Below are positions 49,435 to 59,505 of a DNA stretch of 64,000 nucleotides, piece by piece. Position numbers and translations under genes: made by a program. The notes below the pieces were generated by a model. That model was not told where the DNA came from. It ran no database searches and worked only from the letters and a program-made list of their open reading frames with translations. Each line of letters opens with the position of its first letter. Positions within the stretch are counted from its first letter, which is position 1. The DNA comes from Arundinibacter roseus (GTDB lineage: Bacteria > Bacteroidota > Bacteroidia > Cytophagales > Spirosomataceae): assembly GCF_004348825.1 (NCBI RefSeq), contig NZ_SMJU01000001.1, positions 124,001 through 188,000 on the forward strand, given 5' to 3'.

Positions 49435-51165
49435 CTAGGCAATCGCTGGCAAAGTAATCGTAAATGTACTTCCGGTACCGAAGTCAGTTTCTACCAAAAT
49501 TTGGCCTCCCTGCGCTTCGATAAACTCTTTGCTGATGGCAAGCCCCAGCCCGGTCCCCTCTTTTTTGGAGCCCGGCACCCGAAAGTACCGATTAAATAGT
49601 TTGTCGATATATTGAGGAGCAATGCCCTGCCCGGTATCTTTCACCGCAATTTGAATGAATCCTTTTATGTAAACCAGCGACACATAAATTACCGATCCGT
49701 CGTAGGAGTACCGAATTGCGTTGGATAGGAGATTAGTTAATACCCAGGTTGTTTTTTCAACGTCTACCTCTGCGTAGGGCAACTCGTCGGGTATGGAAAA
49801 TTCAAACGTAATACGTTTTTGAGCGGCCTGCGTTTTGACGGCTTGCACGGCATCGGCAACGAGGACTCCGGCATCCGTTGACGTTGGTATAATTTTTATA
49901 TTTCCGCTTTCAATTTGAGTAATATTTAATAACTCGGAGGTAATTTTCAATAGCCGGTCAGCATCTTGCCGAATACCACTCAGCAGATTCCGCTGTTCGC
50001 TGTTCAATGGGCCGATCTGTTCATTTTCCAATAATTGCACACTCATTTTTACCGACGAAATTGGCGTTTTAAATTCATGGGAAACCGTTGCGATGAAGCT
50101 TGTTTTCGCAAAATCCAGTTCCTTGTAGGCCGTTACATTGCGTAGGATAATTACGTGTCCGATGAGTCGCGTGGCTGTTTCGCCGGGCGGAACAATAGAA
50201 ATGGGGTGCGTATCCTTTTCAAAATAACTTTCCTGATGATTCGCATAAATCTTGATGGATTCAGACGCAGCATCCGACGATTGCTCAGCAGAAGTAAGCA
50301 GGTCTTCTATCAATCTTCGAACCAAATCATTCCGAAGTGCCAGCTCACGAGTTTGATGCCCAAGCAATTCGGAAGACGACAGGCCGAGAATATCCAGCGC
50401 TTTATCATTGGCAAAAATCACTTTTAAACTTTCATCCAGTCCAATTACCGGATCGGACATGTTGCTGATCAACGTCTCAATCCGTTTTTTTTCCATATGC
50501 AGCCGCGCCACATTGCTGTCTTTGTATTCTTCCAGCTTTTCGGCCATTGTGTTAAAAGACTGAGCGAGTTCACCAAATTCATCATGGCTCTCAAAATGCA
50601 GCCGTTCGTGGTAGTTTCCCGCAGCAATTTGCTGAATACTCTGTGAAAGCTCTCGTATCGGGTCGGCAATTTGGGAAGGCAAATTGATGAGCAACACAAA
50701 CGCAGTAAAAAAGCAAAGCGTGGCCGTTAGAGCGATCCAAAATACGGCTTTTTCGGCCCGCTCACCTGCCAATTCGCTTTTCTGCTGAATGGCCTGCATG
50801 TTCATTTCCATAATCTTGAAAAGTCCGGCCCGCAAGGTGACTTTGGCCAGGCTATCGTTCCGGTTTTTTTGAAGTCGAACGAATGCTTCCCGAACCTGCC
50901 TCGTTACTTCTTTCTCCCGGATTTCGGTCAGATTATTCTCCTGCCGAATAAGGTTGGAGTCAAAACCCATGAGCGAACGATCCTTGCTGTTTTCCAGACT
51001 CAGAAGCATGTTTCGGCTATATTCCAGGGAGTTATAATTGGCTTTCAGGATATTTTCCGCATCCGATTTGAGCGCCTGAATGTAGCGAGTTCCCACACCA
51101 CCAAGCAGAACAATCAGGATAAAGAGCAGCCCGACCCCCAGAGTTAATTTGGTTTTTATTTTCAT
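49435..51165 (-). CDS. Sensor histidine kinase of the kdp operon (HAMP-PAS-HisKA-HATPase)
   Basis: 576 residues. Two membrane helices (about 7-25 and 140-162) enclose a 115-residue helical periplasmic loop; a HAMP domain (about 165-215), a PAS domain (about 228-345), and then HisKA with SHEFKTP (H363) and HATPase motifs NLLSNAIRYS, DTGQGIAP, KEGTGLGLAI follow. Its ATG overlaps the stop codon of the KdpD N-terminal gene (TGATG), so translation is coupled. It is likely the phosphorylating half of a split KdpD. KdpD's own C-terminal kinase domain would normally be fused to the sensor. Confidence 0.92.
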   Translation of the reverse strand: MKIKTKLTLGVGLLFILIVLLGGVGTRYIQALKSDAENILKANYNSLEYSRNMLLSLENSKDRSLMGFDSNLIRQENNLTEIREKEVTRQVREAFVRLQKNRNDSLAKVTLRAGLFKIMEMNMQAIQQKSELAGERAEKAVFWIALTATLCFFTAFVLLINLPSQIADPIRELSQSIQQIAAGNYHERLHFESHDEFGELAQSFNTMAEKLEEYKDSNVARLHMEKKRIETLISNMSDPVIGLDESLKVIFANDKALDILGLSSSELLGHQTRELALRNDLVRRLIEDLLTSAEQSSDAASESIKIYANHQESYFEKDTHPISIVPPGETATRLIGHVIILRNVTAYKELDFAKTSFIATVSHEFKTPISSVKMSVQLLENEQIGPLNSEQRNLLSGIRQDADRLLKITSELLNITQIESGNIKIIPTSTDAGVLVADAVQAVKTQAAQKRITFEFSIPDELPYAEVDVEKTTWVLTNLLSNAIRYSYDGSVIYVSLVYIKGFIQIAVKDTGQGIAPQYIDKLFNRYFRVPGSKKEGTGLGLAISKEFIEAQGGQILVETDFGTGSTFTITLPAIA

Positions 51166-52289
51166 CAGGACAGAATAACTAAGTCTATTTCGCTCATGGA
51201 TAGTTTTTTCAACAGCTGATTAAAAACATTGGTAGCCAAAATCACCCGAATCAAATTGAGGTGCGGCTTGCCAACACAAATCGTAGTTATTTTTCGTAGT
51301 TCAGCCTGTTCAATAATAGCCGCCGATACTCGTGAATTTTTCACCTTGATTATTTCTGCCCCCAGCTCGGTGGCCAATTTAAAATTATTAATCAAATGCC
51401 GCTGCTTGTCCAACGGAATCCGGTCGGCACTTTCACCGGGAATCTGCACATAGAGTACGTACCATTTACTGTTGTAATAATTGGCAAGCCGGGCAGTTTT
51501 CCGAATCACCACCCGGGCAGTTTTTTCATTACTGCTTATACAAGCCATAAAACGCTCGTGCCGCACCGCTTTGGAATGGCTGATTTCCTGTTCTACCTTT
51601 CTTTCTACCTGTGATGCTACTTCTTTCAGCGCCAGTTCGCGCAGTTGTAAGATTGGCTCCTTTCGAAAAAAATTAGTCAGCGCGAGTTCAATTTTATCAG
51701 CCGAATAAATTTTCCCTTCCCGCAACCGATTGATCAGTTCATCGGCCGTGAGGTCAATGTTAACTACTTCGTCTGCCTGCGCAAGCACGCTGTCAGGAAT
51801 GCGCTCCCGCACTTCAATGCCGGTGATGCGCTTTACTTCCTCGTTTAGGCTCTCAATATGCTGGATATTTACGGCCGAAATTACGTTTATACCTGCTTCC
51901 AGAATATCCAAAACATCCTGCCATCGTTTTTCATTCTTGCTCCCTTCGGTGTTGGTATGGGCCAATTCATCTACGATCACTACCTCGGGTCGAAGATTGA
52001 TGATCGCCTGCACATCCATTTCTTCCAGCTCTTTGCCGCGGTAAAACAACTTTCGTCGGGGCACAACCGGCAAGCCCTCTACCAACTCCTGAGTTTCTTT
52101 TCGATTGTGTGTTTCGATATAACCCAGTTTTACATCAATCCCATTTTTTAGTAATGTATGGGCTTCCTGCAACATCCGGAAGGTTTTTCCCACGCCCGCA
52201 CTCATCCCAATGTAGATTTTGAATTTTCCCCGACGCGACTTTTTGATTAAATCGAGAAATTCTTCAGCAGAGCGTCTTGTTTCTTCCAT
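51165..52289 (-). CDS. kdpD: KdpD N-terminal sensor with universal-stress domain, stand-alone
   Basis: 374 residues, ending where the full KdpD would continue into its membrane part. The KdpD-specific domain (about 1-220) has Walker A IGMSAGVGKTF (28-37) and the conserved block VDELAHTNTEGSKNEKRWQDV in pieces. A universal-stress-like domain follows (about 245-370: CISSNEKTARVVI...). It has no kinase or membrane segment. It is co-transcribed with a separate kinase, so the KdpD sensor is split over two proteins, and its partner is probably the next gene. Confidence 0.9.
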   Translation of the reverse strand: MEETRRSAEEFLDLIKKSRRGKFKIYIGMSAGVGKTFRMLQEAHTLLKNGIDVKLGYIETHNRKETQELVEGLPVVPRRKLFYRGKELEEMDVQAIINLRPEVVIVDELAHTNTEGSKNEKRWQDVLDILEAGINVISAVNIQHIESLNEEVKRITGIEVRERIPDSVLAQADEVVNIDLTADELINRLREGKIYSADKIELALTNFFRKEPILQLRELALKEVASQVERKVEQEISHSKAVRHERFMACISSNEKTARVVIRKTARLANYYNSKWYVLYVQIPGESADRIPLDKQRHLINNFKLATELGAEIIKVKNSRVSAAIIEQAELRKITTICVGKPHLNLIRVILATNVFNQLLKKLSMSEIDLVILS

Positions 52290-52327: not shown

Positions 52328-53425
52328 CTAAAAGCGAAGCGAAAGCGATGTACCCACAAAGGCGTTTGTAGAAGATGGCGCATTTTTATAAGTAAACAGC
52401 GCATCTCTACTGGAAAAGGTTCTGCCTTCTACCCGCCACAAAACTTCCTGGCTGATGTGCACATCAAGATTCACTGAATACCCAAACGTCTGAAATCCAT
52501 TGGGCGTATTGGTTGCTATGATAACCCCATTCTTATCAGCAAAATACTCTGCACGAGCACCAACCGACACAATACCGGAAGGCGTAAAACGAGCCATCAT
52601 AATGGGTGCATACCACGGATTGTACGCTGCGCTTCCTTTGAACTTTTGTTCAATTCCTATATCAAAACCAAGGATAAGACCAAATTTCTGATGAAGTTGA
52701 AGTTGGGCATAAAGATTATGAAAATAGCGCATTCTACGCTCAGACTCAGGGTAGTCATTCCCGACAAATGAGCTGCTGTTGATCAGCAGGCGGTCGGTTG
52801 GCGTCCAGCTGACCTGATGCCCGAAGGCTGGTGACTGATTGCCCGGTTGGCGCTGAATTCGCTGCCAGCCATTTAACACAAGTCCGCTCAACAGCCACTG
52901 TCCGTCGGCAGAGGTATACGTAAGTTTCGCTCCTGACAAATAGTACGGCGAGTTTTCGGCCATCAGGCTGCGGGTCATCGTCCAGCAGTTGGCACCAATG
53001 GCACTTTCAAAACCGATGTGTGAAGCAAAAATACCCATATCGAGCCACAGCGATTTTTTTGCCGACAGTTTAACTCCTACATTGGCTTCAAACACATTTT
53101 TGAGTACTCCTTCCTCAGCCGCCAAATTTGCATTGGCGTAGGTACCAGCCATCACCGCCAACTTTCCCCGAACGCGCTCAGTTTGTACCTCGGCCTGTAA
53201 AAAACCAAGGTTAAGGTTTACTTCATTGTGCCGATTGTAGGAATACAGAAACGCTGGTCGTGTATGGTTCTCAGGATTTGAGAAATCATAGACATAGTAG
53301 GTTTCCAAATAGCCGCTGACCGTTAATTTACGAGCCTCGGTATTTAAAGAATCTGATTGCGCCCAGCTGCGGGAGTTCAATCCTGCGCATAGGAACAACC
53401 CGAAAAATATCAATAGTTTTTTCAT
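52328..53425 (-). CDS. Outer-membrane porin-like beta barrel in the kdp operon
   Basis: 365 residues with a signal peptide (LLIFFGLFLCAGLNSRSWAQ). The rest alternates in beta-strand patterns, beginning LTVSGYLETYYVYDF and ending in FVGTSLSLRF with terminal Phe, a typical outer-membrane insertion signal. The family is the porin/DUF1597-like protein often found next to kdp in Bacteroidota. It might give potassium a route through the outer membrane, an inference from the neighbours. It is 2 bp from the kdpC stop codon. Confidence 0.82.
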   Translation of the reverse strand: MKKLLIFFGLFLCAGLNSRSWAQSDSLNTEARKLTVSGYLETYYVYDFSNPENHTRPAFLYSYNRHNEVNLNLGFLQAEVQTERVRGKLAVMAGTYANANLAAEEGVLKNVFEANVGVKLSAKKSLWLDMGIFASHIGFESAIGANCWTMTRSLMAENSPYYLSGAKLTYTSADGQWLLSGLVLNGWQRIQRQPGNQSPAFGHQVSWTPTDRLLINSSSFVGNDYPESERRMRYFHNLYAQLQLHQKFGLILGFDIGIEQKFKGSAAYNPWYAPIMMARFTPSGIVSVGARAEYFADKNGVIIATNTPNGFQTFGYSVNLDVHISQEVLWRVEGRTFSSRDALFTYKNAPSSTNAFVGTSLSLRF

Positions 53426-53427
53426 TA

Positions 53428-53994
53428 CTATATGCTTTCCAGCATGTCAAGTTCATAATTCAGTTCCAATGCATGAATATACTCAGGGCCCAAAAATCCC
53501 AGCAATGGTTTTTGGGTGTGTTTTTCAATCAATTTCAGCAGATTTTCTTCCGAAACCTGACGAACTTTTGCAATACGCTTTACCTGAATCTGTGCCGCTG
53601 CTACTGACAGATGCGGATCCAGTCCGCTGCCACTAGCAGTTACCAATTCGGCAGGCAAATCAGCTCGCTTTACTTCCGGGTTATGGTCAAGAAAATGCGT
53701 GATTCGATCTTCTACTTCTTTGAGATGCGCAGGATTTGACGGGCCGTGGTTACTCCCACCCGATCCTGCCGCATTGTAATCAGTAGCCGAAGGGCGTGAC
53801 CAAAAGTAGCGGTCTTCGGAAAAATCCTGACCAACGTTCATGTATTGTACTTTTCCATTATAGATACGGGTATGTCCCTTTCCTTTGCCAGGAACTACCT
53901 GAGCAACACTCCATACGGCTAATGTATAAAAGACTCCAAAAAAGAGAACGCACACAGCCGTGAGTCTGATGGCAGGTAAGATGTTGGTTTTCAT
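53428..53994 (-). CDS. kdpC: Potassium-transporting ATPase subunit KdpC
   Basis: 188 residues, one N-terminal membrane helix (about 8-30). The periplasmic part has the family stretches SRPSATDYNAAGSGGSNHGPSN, DLPAELVTASGSGLDPHLSVAAA and QVKRIAKVRQ. KdpC stabilises the complex and helps potassium binding by KdpB/KdpA. It follows kdpB by 17 bp. Confidence 0.97.
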   Translation of the reverse strand: MKTNILPAIRLTAVCVLFFGVFYTLAVWSVAQVVPGKGKGHTRIYNGKVQYMNVGQDFSEDRYFWSRPSATDYNAAGSGGSNHGPSNPAHLKEVEDRITHFLDHNPEVKRADLPAELVTASGSGLDPHLSVAAAQIQVKRIAKVRQVSEENLLKLIEKHTQKPLLGFLGPEYIHALELNYELDMLESI

Positions 53995-54011: not shown

Positions 54012-56036
54012 TTAAAAAATAAATGATAAGGCAGAATCAATAAGCTTGATTCCGATAAATGGAGCGACGAGTCCACCCAAACCATAAATAAGCAGATTTC
54101 GACGCAGCAATGCGCTGGCACCAATTGGCTTGTACGCTACCCCTTTCAGCGCGAGCGGAATGAGAAAAGGAATAATGAGCGCATTGAAAATAACTGCCGA
54201 AAGTATAGCACTTTCCGGACTCGCGAGCTGCATGATGTTCAGACCTTGCAGGGAAGGAATGCCTACCATAAAAAGTGCCGGGATGATGGCAAAGTACTTG
54301 GCAACGTCGTTGGCAATACTGAAAGTCGTCAGCGTGCCGCGGGTCATGAGCAACTGCTTGCCAATTTCTACAATCTCAATCAATTTGGTTGGATCGTTGT
54401 CCATATCTACCATATTTCCGGCTTCCTTAGCCGCCTGCGTTCCGCTGTTCATGGCTACTCCTACATCGGCCTGAGCCAGGGCCGGGGCGTCGTTGGTGCC
54501 GTCGCCCATCATGGCTACCAATCTCCCCTGCGCCTGTTCGTGCCTGATGTAGTTCATTTTATCCTCCGGTTTGGCTTCGGCAATAAAATCGTCAACGCCC
54601 GCTTTTTCGGCAATATATCGGGCCGTCAGCGGGTTGTCGCCCGTTACCATCACTGTTTTTATACCCATTTTTCGCAGACGTTCAAATCGCTCCTGAATAC
54701 CTGGTTTGATAATATCCTGAAGCTCGATTACGCCAATGACGCGCTCGTTTTCGGCTACTACCAGCGGCGTGCCGCCATTGGCAGAAATGGCGATAACCTG
54801 TTCGTGTATTTCTTCCGGAAAGTGATTTCCAGCTTTTTCACTCAGCGTGCGAATGGTATCCACCGCCCCTTTCCGAATCCGCGTTTGTCCGACATCAATA
54901 CCCGAACTTCGGGTTTCGGCAGTAAATTTTATGAATCGGAAATTATCCAGTTTCAGGTTCGCCGGAACACCTCCCACCAGTTCAATAATAGACTTGCCTT
55001 CGGGAGTTTCGTCGCTTAGGGAACTCAACAATACGCTATGGGCAAATTGCTTTTCATCCACTCCGTTTGCCGCAAAAATGCGGGTCGCTTTTCGGTTGCC
55101 AATCGTGATGGTGCCGGTTTTATCCAATAATAAAACATCAATATCGCCCGCCACTTCAACCGCCCGTCCGCTCTTGGTAATCACATTGGCACGCAGCGCC
55201 CGGTCCATTCCCGCAATGCCTATGGCCGACAGCAAGCCGCCAATCGTCGTTGGAATCAGGCATACAAACAGCGAAATGAGTGCCGTAATGGTTACGGGAG
55301 AATTGACATACTCGGCAAAAGGCGCAAGGGTACCCGTAACCAGAATAAAGACAAGCGTAAAACCGGCAAGCAGAATGGTCAGCGCTACTTCATTGGGTGT
55401 TTTTTGCCGGCTTGCGCCTTCTACCAGGCCAATCATTTTATCCAGAAAGCTCTCACCCGGCTCGGTCGTAACCAACACCCGAATCCGGTCAGACAGCACC
55501 TTAGTTCCGCCTGTTACAGAACTCTTGTCGCCACCGGCCTCCCGAATCACCGGGGCACTTTCGCCGGTAATGGCACTTTCGTCAATCGTGGCCAGGCCTT
55601 CTATAATTTCTCCGTCGGAAGGAATTATATCTCCGGCTTCACACAGGAACACATCGCCTTTCCTAAGCTGTGAAGAGGAAACAGTCGTATACGAAGTACC
55701 CTTTTCAACTCGTTTTGCCGGAGTTTCTTCCCGGGTTTTACGCAGGCTATCTGCCTGCGCTTTGCCGCGGGCTTCGGCGATTGCCTCCGCAAAATTGGCA
55801 AAAAGCAGCGTGAGTAACAGAATCAGAAACACGGCAAGATTATATCCTAAACTGCCTTGTGAATTCTCTCCCGCAGCTATCCAAATGCAGACAAAAAACA
55901 GAATAACGGTACCGATTTCTACCGTAAACATGACGGGATTCCGAAATATGATCTTCGGATTAAGTTTTATAAAAGACTCCCGGAGCGCCTGACGCACCAG
56001 ATCTTTTTGAAATAGAGATGAATTTTGGGATTTCAT
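54012..56036 (-). CDS. kdpB: Potassium-transporting ATPase ATP-binding subunit KdpB
   Basis: 674 residues, P-type ATPase. The phosphorylation site is in [16 protein letters not shown] (about 305), TGES in [11 protein letters not shown], the nucleotide domain KGAVDTI, and the hinge [21 protein letters not shown]. About seven membrane helices are seen. It uses ATP to drive the potassium channel-like KdpA against a steep gradient. It follows kdpA by 25 bp. Confidence 0.98.
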
Positions 56037-56061: not shown

Positions 56062-57765
56062 TTAGTAGTAAAGAGAAAAGTATTCGGCTAGTGGCCCCAA
56101 AGTGAGCGCCGGGAAAAAGGACAAAGCCGCTACAAGTACAATGACCGCAAATACGAGCAGTCCGAAAGTGGCAGTATCGGTTTTTAATGTTCCTGCACTT
56201 TCAGGAATATATTTTTTGGAAATCAACAATCCCGCAATCGCTACCGGGCCAATGATGGGCAGAAACCGCGCCAGCAGCATCACAAGCCCACAGGCTATAT
56301 TCCAAAAAGGCGTATTGTCGCCAAGTCCTTCAAAACCACTGCCGTTGTTGGCACTTGCGGAGGTAAATTCGTACAACATTTCGCTGAATCCGTGAAAGCC
56401 GGGATTGTTGAGCCAACCGGCATATTCGACCGGATCGGTCACGTACAGATGACTTGCCAGGGCAGTGCCTCCAAGGATCAGAAGCGGGTGTACCAATGCT
56501 ATGCACATGGCGATCTTTACTTCACGGGCCTCAACTTTTCGGCCCAGAAACTCGGGCGTACGACCGACCATGAGACCGCCCATGAATACGCCAAGAATGA
56601 TGAAAACAAAGAAATTCAGAAAGCCGACCCCTACTCCACCGTAGAAACAGTTGACCATCATGCCTACCATGGCAAACATACCCGTGAGCGGCGTCATGCT
56701 GTCGTGCATGGCATTGACGGAGCCGTTGCTCGTAACCGTGGTATTGATGGCCCAATAGGCCGATGAAGCAGCACCAACCCGGATTTCTTTTCCTTCAAAA
56801 CTCCCCAAACGTTGATCAATGCCAAGAGTTGAAATCACCGGATTACCTTTCAATTCGTTTAGAACCGAAGGAATTACCAAAAGCAAAAAACCGAGAGTCA
56901 TTACGCCGTAGATCATCCAGGCCAGTTTTTTTCTCCGAATTACATATCCAAAGGCAAATACCATGGCAATCGGAATCAGAAAAATGAAGGCAGTTTCGAG
57001 CATATTAGTGAGGTAATTGGGATTTTCCAGGGGATGCGCTGAGTTGGTGCCATAGTATCCTCCACCATTCGTTCCCAGTTGTTTGATAGGCACAAATGCA
57101 GCAGCCGGGCCCCGACTGATTTCCTGAACTGCTCCTTCCAAAGTTGTAGCCGCTGCTTTTCCCTCGAAAGTCATCGGTACGCCATTTAGTAGCAGGACTA
57201 CCGCTCCCAGAAAAGCCAGTGGAAACAGAATACGCGTAGCCGACCGGACCAAAAGGCTGTAAAAATTTCCCAGGCGAGTAGTAGTATTTGGGCTAAATGC
57301 TAAAAAAACTACTGAACAAATAGCCATTCCCGTAGCAGCACTTACAAATTGCCATACCATGAGTGTGAGCTGTCCAAAATACGACAGCCCACTTTCACCG
57401 GAATAGTGTTGCAGATTGGTGTTTGTCACAAAACTTACCGCCGTGTTGAAGGCAAGGTCGGCCGACATCGAGGGATTTCCGTCAGGATTCAGCGGCAACC
57501 ATTCCATATTGGTCAGGACAAACAGGGAGACTGTAAACCAAACCAAATTAATGGTCAGAAGCGCTTGCAGGTGCTCTTTCCAGCTCATGGGAAGGCGCGG
57601 GTCAATACCTGACAACTTAAAGAATAGACGATCCAGGGGATTGAAAAGTACGTCCAGCCGCGTGGGTTCGTAGCTGAAAACTTTGCCGATGTACCTTCCC
57701 AAAGGAATGGCCGCCGCTAATACGAGTAAGTAGGTACATAAAATTCCGAGTATTTCCGTAGGCAT
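56062..57765 (-). CDS. kdpA: Potassium-transporting ATPase channel subunit KdpA
   Basis: 567 residues with about ten helices. All four selectivity-filter loops are readable: [39 protein letters not shown] and [13 protein letters not shown]. They resemble the GYG-type filter of K+ channels. It selects potassium and passes it to KdpB. It starts 5 bp after the tiny kdpF. Confidence 0.98.
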
Positions 57766-57770
57766 GATTT

Positions 57771-57851
57771 CTAAAATTTTTCAGGATTAATTAATACATA
57801 GCTCATGTAGCCAAAGACAGCCAGAGCAATAATCAGCAGTAGGATCATCAT
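57771..57851 (-). CDS. kdpF: KdpF, tiny membrane subunit
   Basis: 26 residues, MMILLLIIALAVFGYMSYV and the tail LINPEKF. The single membrane helix plus the C-terminal PEKF fit KdpF, which stabilises the KdpABC complex in the membrane. It was too short for a normal ORF search, but its stop codon lies only 5 bp before kdpA. The start is one of two consecutive ATG codons. Confidence 0.88.
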   Translation of the reverse strand: MMILLLIIALAVFGYMSYVLINPEKF

Positions 57852-57904
57852 GGTGTTTTTTGAATTTTTTAGTAAAAATTGGTTGCAGAAAGTGGTTTCC
57901 ACCC

Positions 57905-57985
57905 TCAGATTTTTTCGAAATAATCAATGCACTTGAACAGGAAGAGAAAAATCAGCAGTCCAAGAAAATAGAGTACGTAGGTCAT
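57905..57985 (-). CDS. Second tiny membrane ORF upstream of kdpF
   Basis: 26 residues on the minus strand: MTYVLYFLGLLIFLFLFK then CIDYFEKI and a TGA stop. One hydrophobic helix fills most of it. It lies 53 bp before kdpF and about 20 bp after the predicted sigma-54 start site, so it would be the first gene of the transcript. It is not clearly a KdpF copy, as the NPEKF tail is missing. It may be a distinct small Kdp partner or a leader peptide. Confidence 0.6.
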   Translation of the reverse strand: MTYVLYFLGLLIFLFLFKCIDYFEKI

Positions 57986-58016
57986 AGCCGTAATTTTTGA
58001 TGTTTCTTACCTAGAA

Positions 58017-58031
58017 GTAATTGCTATGCCA
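58017..58031 (-). promoter_or_regulatory. Sigma-54-like promoter of the kdp operon
   Basis: On the minus strand TGGCAT-N5-TTAC matches TGGCAC-N5-TTGC in the -24 GG, with one change in the -12 GC. It lies between the response regulator and the tiny ORF, with the expected distance to both. Confidence 0.5.
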
Positions 58032-58100
58032 CAAATTCAAGTTTCAATTCAACCCTTTGATTATTAATTATTTACGACAAAAAACTTACCTATACCAAAC

Positions 58101-58126
58101 AAAAAACCCTTTCAAAATGAAAGGGT
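58101..58126 (-). terminator. Terminator of the sigma-54 regulator gene
   Basis: A 9-bp stem ACCCTTTCA / TGAAAGGGT with a 3-nt loop and six T's on the minus strand, 33 bp after the stop codon. Its arm is also one copy of a tandem repeat. Confidence 0.75.
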
Positions 58127-58148
58127 CGTATTGGCAAAATGAAAGGGT
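58113..58148. repeat. Tandem 14-bp repeat upstream of the kdp promoter
   Basis: CAAAATGAAAGGGT occurs at 58113-58126 and again at 58135-58148, 22 bp apart (two helical turns). The copies lie about 100-140 bp upstream of the predicted kdp start site, the usual distance for enhancer sites of NtrC-type regulators. Confidence 0.7.
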
Positions 58149-58158
58149 ACAGATTCTG

Positions 58159-59505
58159 CTAGCTCAGGCGATACTCGGCCAGTTTTCGATACAGGGTCGT
58201 GAGCGCAATGCCGAGAAGTTCGGCGGTTTTGGTTTTATTTCCCTGCGTATAATTCAGGACTTTTTGAATATGAATCTTTTCGGCACTTGCCAGTTCGAAA
58301 GCCGAAAGTTGCCGGGGTGCCGACGCACTCGCCAGGGCAGGCTGCATGTCTACCGGCAAAAGGTCGGGCGTAAGTTCGGGGCTGTTTGAAAGAATGACGG
58401 CCCGCTCAATCACATTTTTCAGTTCGCGGATATTTCCATTCCAGGGATGGTTTTGAAGGGCTTTTAAAAAATCCCCTGAAATAGCCGTAACTTTTTTATT
58501 GGTTTTAGCAGAAAACAGGTCTAAAAAATGAGCAGCCAACTGCGCTACATCTTCGGTGCGCTCGCGCAGGGCCGGCAGCCGGATCTGAAAAACGGAAATG
58601 CGGTAGAAGAGGTCTTCCCGAAAATGTCCGGCCTCAATTTCATGCCGGAGATCCCGGTGCGTAGCAGCCAGAATGCGGACGTCTACCCGCGTGGGTTTAC
58701 TTTCGCCAATGCGGATAAACTCCCCGGTTTCCAGCACACGGAGCAACTTGGCTTGCAGTTCGAGCGCCATTTCTCCGATTTCATCCAGAAAGATAGTCCC
58801 GCGATTTGCCTCGTCAAACAACCCTTTATGGTCTTTGATGGCACCCGTAAAGGCCCCGGCCCGGTGGCCAAACATCTCACTTTCGAGCATTTCTTTCCCA
58901 AACGCCGAGCAGTTGATCGCCACAAAATTATGGGTACGACGAGCGCTTTCCTGATGAATCGCCTGAGCAAAAACTTCCTTCCCGGTTCCCGTTTCTCCGG
59001 TCAAAAGAACCGTCGTGTCGGTTTGCGCCACCCGTCGTGCCAAATCAACGGCCTGCATCAAGGAAGCAGACTGACCGACAACCCGCGCAAACGAATACCG
59101 CTCGCCCAGTTGTTTTTCCAACTGCCGAACCCGCTTGGCCAAAGCGGCTTTTTCAACAGCCCGATAGAGCAAAGGAATAATTCGACTATTGTCATCGCCT
59201 TTGGTTATATAGTCGAAAGCGCCATTTTTGATTGCCTGAACACTATCCGGAATATTGCCATAGGCCGTCAGAAGGATGATTTCTACCTGCGGAAAGCGTT
59301 CCTTAATAGTAGCCGCCAATTCGACGCCACTAGCGTCGGGGAGTTTTACGTCACAAAGCACAACGTCCACATCTGCCTGTTTCAACATAGCGAGCCCCGT
59401 TTTGCCGTCGCCCGCCCCAAGTACCTCAAAGCCTTCCAGACTGATTATCCGGGTGAGCAGCGCTCTGAGCTTCTCCTCGTCATCAATGATAAGTACCGTT
59501 TTCAA
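58159..59505 (-). CDS. NtrC-type sigma-54-dependent response regulator
   Basis: 448 residues. The receiver domain has acidic DDE at 8-10, the phospho-acceptor in VLCDVKLP (D52) and the lysine of YITKGDD. The AAA+ domain has Walker A GETGTGKE (170-177), the sigma-54 contact loop GAFTGA (217-222) and Walker B FLDEIGE. The C-terminal Fis-type helix-turn-helix is KTKTAELLGIALTTLYRKL. It activates sigma-54 promoters upon phosphorylation. It stands just upstream of the kdp operon, where KdpE would be expected, and is likely the operon's regulator. Confidence 0.95.
   Translation of the reverse strand: MKTVLIIDDEEKLRALLTRIISLEGFEVLGAGDGKTGLAMLKQADVDVVLCDVKLPDASGVELAATIKERFPQVEIILLTAYGNIPDSVQAIKNGAFDYITKGDDNSRIIPLLYRAVEKAALAKRVRQLEKQLGERYSFARVVGQSASLMQAVDLARRVAQTDTTVLLTGETGTGKEVFAQAIHQESARRTHNFVAINCSAFGKEMLESEMFGHRAGAFTGAIKDHKGLFDEANRGTIFLDEIGEMALELQAKLLRVLETGEFIRIGESKPTRVDVRILAATHRDLRHEIEAGHFREDLFYRISVFQIRLPALRERTEDVAQLAAHFLDLFSAKTNKKVTAISGDFLKALQNHPWNGNIRELKNVIERAVILSNSPELTPDLLPVDMQPALASASAPRQLSAFELASAEKIHIQKVLNYTQGNKTKTAELLGIALTTLYRKLAEYRLS

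Follow-up and report, generated by a model that had tools for sequence, protein, structure and literature searches.

A predicted sigma-54-type control region with tandem NtrC-type sites upstream of the kdp operon of Arundinibacter roseus

The control region of the kdp operon in Arundinibacter roseus is probably a sigma-54-type, enhancer-dependent promoter served by NtrC-type tandem sites. The region lies in a 64-kb stretch of DNA, referred to here as the window, from contig C11 of the 5.83-Mb A. roseus genome (G000). Comparison with relatives shows the geometry of the putative enhancer, which consists of a pair of sites, spaced mostly 19-23 bp apart, with a predicted promoter ~81 or ~102.5 bp away.

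Results

Organization of the kdp locus

Read along the minus strand, the locus opens with an NtrC-type regulator gene, followed by site 1, site 2 with its overlapping terminator, a promoter-like element, and a 26-codon ORF (Table 1). The ORF is succeeded by kdpF, kdpA, kdpB, and kdpC, and then by genes for a BBP2-type porin, a KdpD-like sensor, and a HAMP/PAS histidine kinase. The regulator combines a receiver, a sigma-54 AAA+ domain (Sigma54_activat), and a Fis-type HTH, the composition of NtrC family response regulators, and its translation contains the GAFTGA motif. It is therefore this NtrC-type protein, and not an OmpR-type KdpE, that adjoins kdp. The best NCBIfam match of the KdpD-like sensor was NF038185, which fell under the cut-off (365 versus 550 bits). 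The genome also holds two matches to RpoN (PF04552) above cut-off, as is appropriate for a host using sigma-54 promoters. These matches are located at C1:28245-28724 (L001) and C41:185015-185488 (L002), and the second adjoins a match to an NtrC-type regulator (C41:183495-184919).

Table 1. Features of the kdp control region and operon, in window coordinates
Feature	Position	Strand	Basis
NtrC-type response regulator, presumed activator	58159..59505	-	Pfam PF00072, PF00158, PF02954
Enhancer-like site 1, upstream (core CATTTTG, 58141-58135)	58135..58148	-	Exact copy of the 14-mer, at a distance of 22 bp to site 2; pair kept in relatives
Predicted intrinsic terminator of the regulator gene (site 2 plus T-run)	58098..58127	-	Terminator call, fold
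Enhancer-like site 2, perfect dyad ACCCTTTCA-TTT-TGAAAGGGT (core 58119-58113)	58106..58126	-	Sequence, genome count, relatives
Sigma-54-type -24/-12 element, TGGCAT-N5-TTAC	58017..58031	-	Sits at offset 81, like the sites of relatives; aligns with L185
Predicted transcription start, ~58005	58000..58010	-	Inferred from -12 position
Small hydrophobic ORF of 26 aa at the head of the operon; conserved; without family match	57905..57985	-	Profile searches and relatives
kdpF	57771..57851	-	PF09604
kdpA	56062..57765	-	PF03814
kdpB	54012..56036	-	E1-E2 ATPase and hydrolase domains; between kdpA and kdpC
kdpC	53428..53994	-	PF02669
BBP2 (OmpL-like) porin gene, between kdpC and KdpD-like sensor	52328-53425	-	Domain match
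KdpD-like sensor without kinase domain	51165..52289	-	PF02702
HAMP/PAS histidine kinase, candidate regulator partner	49435..51165	-	PF00672, PF00989, PF00512, PF02518

With respect to the small ORF, a hydrophobic reading frame, mostly 26-31 aa long and ending in FEKI or similar, was observed 5′ of kdpF in 114 of 123 loci, as counted with a pattern that requires the FEKI-like ending. Its pN/pS was 0.27 over 219 non-independent within-genus pairs, which suggests selection at the protein level. In Pfam and NCBIfam the window's copy had no match, nor did the copies of two relatives in NCBIfam. This ORF may represent an unnamed second small Kdp subunit.

Tandem sites and terminator in the window

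An initial annotation of this DNA had described a repeat with a 22-bp period upstream of kdp. This is borne out, as the 64 kb contain CAAAATGAAAGGGT at exactly two places, with plus-strand starts at 58113 and 58135. The repeat is, however, part of a larger element, since the copy nearer to kdp forms one half of a 21-bp dyad (58126-58106, minus strand) that is followed by TTTTT, and the first gene of the operon is the 26-codon ORF (57985-57905) rather than kdpF. The dyad and its T-run have the stable stem followed by a run of T that marks intrinsic terminators, with a called stem of 10 pairs, four of which are G-C, and a fold with a z of -2.35 for the 71-nt stretch. With a predicted +1 near 58005, the axes of the two sites fall near -111 and -133, inside the 100-140 bp from the start site that had been suggested. 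A search of positions 57500-58400 returned no Rfam family match up to E 1.

In the 5.83-Mb genome the exact dyad is found once, and no site matches it at one or two mismatches. At three mismatches there were 25 genome sites, compared with 32 for the reversed control. The dyad is thus beyond chance in the genome, and the search for a wider regulon yielded no second copy within two mismatches.

Conservation of the site pair among relatives

Of the 150 genomes in the family sample, 88 contain KdpA, as do 81 of the 291 in the order sample; 32 KdpA-positive genomes are common to both, for a total of 137. Upstream regions were taken from 123 genomes (L062-L184) and from 27 loci on further contigs, which after removal of 2 duplicates gave 148 loci in 52 genera. 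The 27 added loci are mostly from Bacteroidota (e.g. Flavobacterium, Chryseobacterium, Elizabethkingia, Pedobacter, Mucilaginibacter, Paraprevotella, and Dyadobacter) and derive from at least 80 listed loci, 28 of which have a KdpA match nearby; the partial locus L230 was left out. Fourteen of the 137 KdpA-positive genomes lie outside the 148 loci, and two of these (G059 and G157) later served as controls. The genus of the window is represented by its own genome alone, so that all relatives belong to other genera, and the loci are related by descent, such that the counts given below are not independent.

Two exact core heptamers (CATTTTG or CGTTTTG, or their reverse complements) placed 18-25 bp apart were present in 78 of the 148 kdp upstream regions, whereas 50 dinucleotide shuffles of the set averaged 0.18 loci with such pairs and never exceeded 1. 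The spacing was 19-23 bp in 75 of 79 exact pairs. The cores are about two helical turns apart and therefore lie on roughly the same face of the DNA. When one mismatch in one core was allowed, pairs were found in 121 of 148 loci (shuffles: mean 7.5, maximum 14). Exact pairs are spread over 30 of the 52 genera and looser pairs over 45, and 27 of the 148 loci lack a pair. Of the two sites, site 1 is the less symmetrical, with a mean of 4.6-4.8 of 9 possible pairs versus 6.7-8.1 for site 2. The sites are accordingly tandem, dyad-like, in helical phase, upstream of the promoter, and conserved, as is characteristic of an NtrC-type enhancer (UAS). The repeat does not vary freely among the relatives, all of which stand outside the genus. 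Together with the distance to a sigma-54-type motif, which is likewise conserved in Bacteroidota relatives, and with the fitting regulator domains and RpoN, this upholds the proposal that the repeat is an NtrC-type tandem enhancer.

The distribution of the regulator gene follows that of the pump. In the family sample of 150 genomes, 85 contain both KdpA and an orthologue of the regulator (scored at 429 bits or more), 2 the regulator only, and 3 KdpA only. Seven kdpA regions were treated as controls. Five of these, comprising three second copies, one distant homologue, and the locus of G109, have another arrangement and no site pair; one is ambiguous and one has a pair. The ambiguous case is L273, in which a pair located 670 bp upstream of a second kdpA copy, between it and an oppositely oriented first copy, was assigned to neither outcome. 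The control with a pair is L276 (G059), where the kdp contig is short and a full-length regulator orthologue was not found in the genome. From the co-occurrence and the control regions, we infer that the regulator binds the predicted sites. As a separate observation, kdp in G109 (L275:1676-3486) is preceded by a histidine kinase and by a regulator that by eye looks OmpR-type, not NtrC-type, and has no site pair; this is perhaps a replacement of the kdp control system.

The terminator and the binding site

The location of site 2 directly behind the regulator gene raises the question of which job is conserved. One explanation is that the repeat is merely the regulator's terminator with a duplicated arm, kdp being transcribed from another promoter. 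The sequence of site 2 indeed makes a good terminator, and its arms pair best where it adjoins the regulator (mean of 8.1 of 9 pairs versus 7.1 and 6.7 elsewhere). A terminator, however, needs neither a second copy nor a fixed distance to a promoter, and both the gene and the T-run can be absent where the pair is kept. Specifically, in the 28 loci with no regulator gene towards kdp within 2.6 kb, the pair is still present in 26 (15 exact). These 28 are the loci that have at least 2.6 kb of upstream sequence; a first count of 37 without a nearby regulator (22 exact, 33 looser) had included 9 with less than 2.6 kb (7 with an exact pair), and in one of the 37, L176, the regulator is nearby on the other strand. 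Moreover, 42 of the 121 paired loci have no run of four or more T after site 2. A terminator and nothing else is thus very unlikely to account for the repeat. As the pair is kept without the regulator gene and without the T-run, binding, not termination, seems to be the conserved job, with the binding site constant and the terminator optional.

That one element may serve both purposes, as the initial annotation had suggested, agrees with the distribution of T-runs. Where the regulator's stop codon is <150 bp upstream of site 1, 39 of 53 loci have a run of at least five T after site 2; the figures are 13 of 35 for loci with the regulator linked but further away and 12 of 33 for those in which it was not found nearby. 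Sharing of the terminator is therefore commonest directly behind the regulator (39/53 versus 25/68 elsewhere, the sets compared by Fisher test, p 1e-4).

Promoter geometry across relatives

A de novo motif search was run, with no consensus supplied, on the 140 bp that precede the first small ORF (or kdpF) in 123 loci and returned TGG-[AG][AC][CT]-N5-TTG[G/C]CAT, which has sigma-54 spacing. When matrices were trained on the family loci and applied to the others, and vice versa, only 19 of 46 loci and 36 of 74 loci scored above the 99% null level. For the geometry, the 27 pairless loci were removed and the best consensus match was sought in the 170 bp after site 2. This match fell 79-84 or 100-105 bp after site 2, bins chosen after the histogram was seen, in 99 of 121 loci; the count was 96-102 over 20 random tie-breaks, and shuffles gave a mean of 9.3 and a maximum of 16. 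Ties were broken towards the middle of the segment for the histogram and the first base count, and at random for the comparison with shuffles. With the window excluded, the medians of 34 of 42 genera lie in the two bins. The preferred offsets are ~81 and ~102.5 bp, and the gap of ~21.5 bp between them is about two helical turns; six loci have offsets of 88-94. Periods of 10.5, 11, and 11.5 describe the clustering of offsets about equally well (R of 0.69, 0.75, and 0.73), such that the exact period is not fixed.

At the -12 element, the consensus score awards two points for G at -13 and one for C at -12. An earlier count of 101 of 103 sites with G was therefore biased, and sites were instead picked on the -24 and TT bases alone, which located them in 115 of 121 loci. 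The -13/-12 pair in these 115 sites was GG in 55, GC in 25, GA in 13, GT in 10, and another pair in 12, the window being among the 12, which makes the window less of an outlier than the earlier count had implied. Many relatives carry TTGG-CA in place of the TTGC expected for a sigma-54 -12 element (55 GG versus 25 GC), which may reflect a preference of RpoN in Bacteroidota. Some relatives (L117, L123, L124, and L067) have TGGCAY-N5-TTGA or TTTC at offset 80-81. Overall, the -12 element seems to have drifted repeatedly among the relatives.

The promoter-like element of the window

In the window, the proposed element is present as described, with TGGCAT at 58031-58026, five bases, and TTAC at 58020-58017 on the minus strand (58031-58017 in all). 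GG at -25/-24 agrees with sigma-54 promoters, whereas the GC, or at least G, expected at -13/-12 with GG-N10 spacing is replaced by AC. By itself the string is no more than chance, as 84 places in the 64-kb window, the promoter included, match at least 8 of 10 consensus bases. Its position is more telling. The element sits at offset 81 from site 2, and only 29 of 4000 shuffled versions of the window's segment gave an equal or better match in the two position bins, which had been fixed after the offset histogram was viewed. In addition, L185, whose regulator is 69% identical, aligns with the window without a gap from site 2 through the -12 element, and its near-canonical promoter, TGGAAC-N5-TTGC, is likewise at offset 81. 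Offset and alignment therefore make the register originally proposed the likely one.

Two other registers were considered, namely GTGGCATA as the -12 element, homologous to TTTGGCATA of the relatives, and GGG-N10-GG from 58109. GGCAT is the -12 string in many relatives, and the string at 58109 attains the top matrix score (11.4 bits). Reading GGCAT as -12, though, places AC instead of GG at -24 and gives an offset of 69, and we rejected it on these grounds. The string at 58109 overlaps the dyad at offset 3, within the terminator; neither 3 nor 69 is a modal offset, and L185 aligns in the TGGCAT-N5-TTAC register. Either of these registers is most improbable. Matrices trained on relatives gave the window site itself poor scores (-4.1, -12.1, and 2.7 bits), and the relatives' matrix was rejected as a judge of this site, given that it ranks first a string internal to the terminator.

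A more serious alternative, although still an unlikely one, is that the enhancer is real and the sigma-54 promoter has decayed here, leaving kdp to be expressed poorly or from a sigma-A type promoter. This would account for the low matrix scores and for the A at -13, which is unusual in that only 12 of 115 comparable sites lack G (103 have it). Nevertheless, TGGCAT and the TT are intact at the expected offset of 81, and L117 shows the same pattern (TGGCAT-N5-TTTC, offset 81), so that such sites recur. A simple scan of the minus strand over 57700-58400, which did not cover the Bacteroidota consensus, also detected no match of the sigma-70 type. Promoters of Bacteroidota have the -7 motif TANNTTTG, which matches at 67 places in the 64-kb window; on visual inspection, the interval from site 2 to the first ORF contains no exact copy of it.

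Taken together, the claim of a sigma-54-like promoter holds as to register, offset 81, and alignment with L185, and is weakened by the base at -13 and the poor matrix scores. By position and descent the window element appears to act like a sigma-54 promoter; one defining base deviates, and it is a candidate member of the class. The promoter is probably weak owing to its degenerate -12 element (TTAC), or the RpoN of the host tolerates it.

Discussion

The arrangement described here suggests the following mechanism. The genes downstream of the pump encode a split KdpD-like protein and a HAMP histidine kinase, through which low potassium would presumably be sensed, and these proteins would phosphorylate the NtrC-type regulator. 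Dimers of the regulator would then bind the two dyad-like sites, ~two helical turns apart, and, judging from the family to which it belongs, the regulator would form an AAA+ ring and contact sigma-54 polymerase across a ~81-bp loop. The nearer site, directly behind the regulator gene, is predicted to double as that gene's intrinsic terminator.

In the KdpD/KdpE control of kdpFABC, KdpE is an OmpR-type regulator. We know of no sigma-54 enhancer that is involved in this control. The present system resembles it in having the same pump and a KdpD-like sensor domain, and differs in that its regulator is NtrC-type rather than OmpR-type; the locus of G109, with an OmpR-type-looking regulator, is without the site pair.

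A closer parallel is found in Desulfovibrio vulgaris Hildenborough, for which one study mapped DVU3334, an NtrC-family regulator, to the kdpFABC operon, where the sensor is split (PMC3333781). There too an NtrC-family regulator is found at kdp, and the sensor consists of a KdpD/UspA-type protein plus a kinase encoded separately. The binding sites reported there are, for the most part, inverted 4-6-bp repeats separated by 3-8 bp (PMC3333781). In D. vulgaris, however, the regulator lies within the operon that it controls, an operon also targeted by two more regulators (PMC3333781), whereas in A. roseus it is upstream of kdp and has its own predicted terminator.

The geometry is reminiscent of the LuxO-qrr enhancers of Vibrio, which likewise pair tandem NtrC-type sites with a sigma-54 promoter and whose loop lengths are ~80-120 bp and fall in clusters ~11 bp apart (PMC4740811). 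The regulator, target, and phylum are different, and the kdp loci are dominated by ~81 and 102.5 bp, with few at 88-94.

As for earlier surveys, the main text of a 2025 sigma-54 regulon study contains neither kdp nor potassium (PMC12316311). In a 2011 survey, kdp comes up in connection with the PTSNtr link in E. coli (PMC3162934), and a sigma-54 regulator gene is reported in the context of a KdpDE-type kdp locus in Acidihalobacter (PMC9062700). Our literature search, outside of which most subscription papers fell, found no report of sigma-54/NtrC control of kdp in Bacteroidota. The mechanism as such (NtrC enhancer, sigma-54, loop) is known, and the assignment to this class is well supported; here it is applied to kdp in a phylum for which we found no description.

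A broader proposal is that a kdp-sigma-54 wiring extends throughout the Bacteroidota, with a dedicated NtrC-type regulator, an enhancer quantised at 81 or 102.5 bp, a terminator hairpin that is also the binding dyad, and a -12 element that has drifted to TTGG-CA. We offer this tentatively, as a possibility that we would stop just short of favoring. If true, a terminator that is also an enhancer could couple transcription of the regulator to activation of kdp. The kdp loci also provide a natural case of enhancer geometry under selection, with many species, one regulator, two preferred loop lengths, and variants at -12. More generally, the comparison suggests that potassium control in many Bacteroidota departs from the textbook KdpDE/OmpR scheme.
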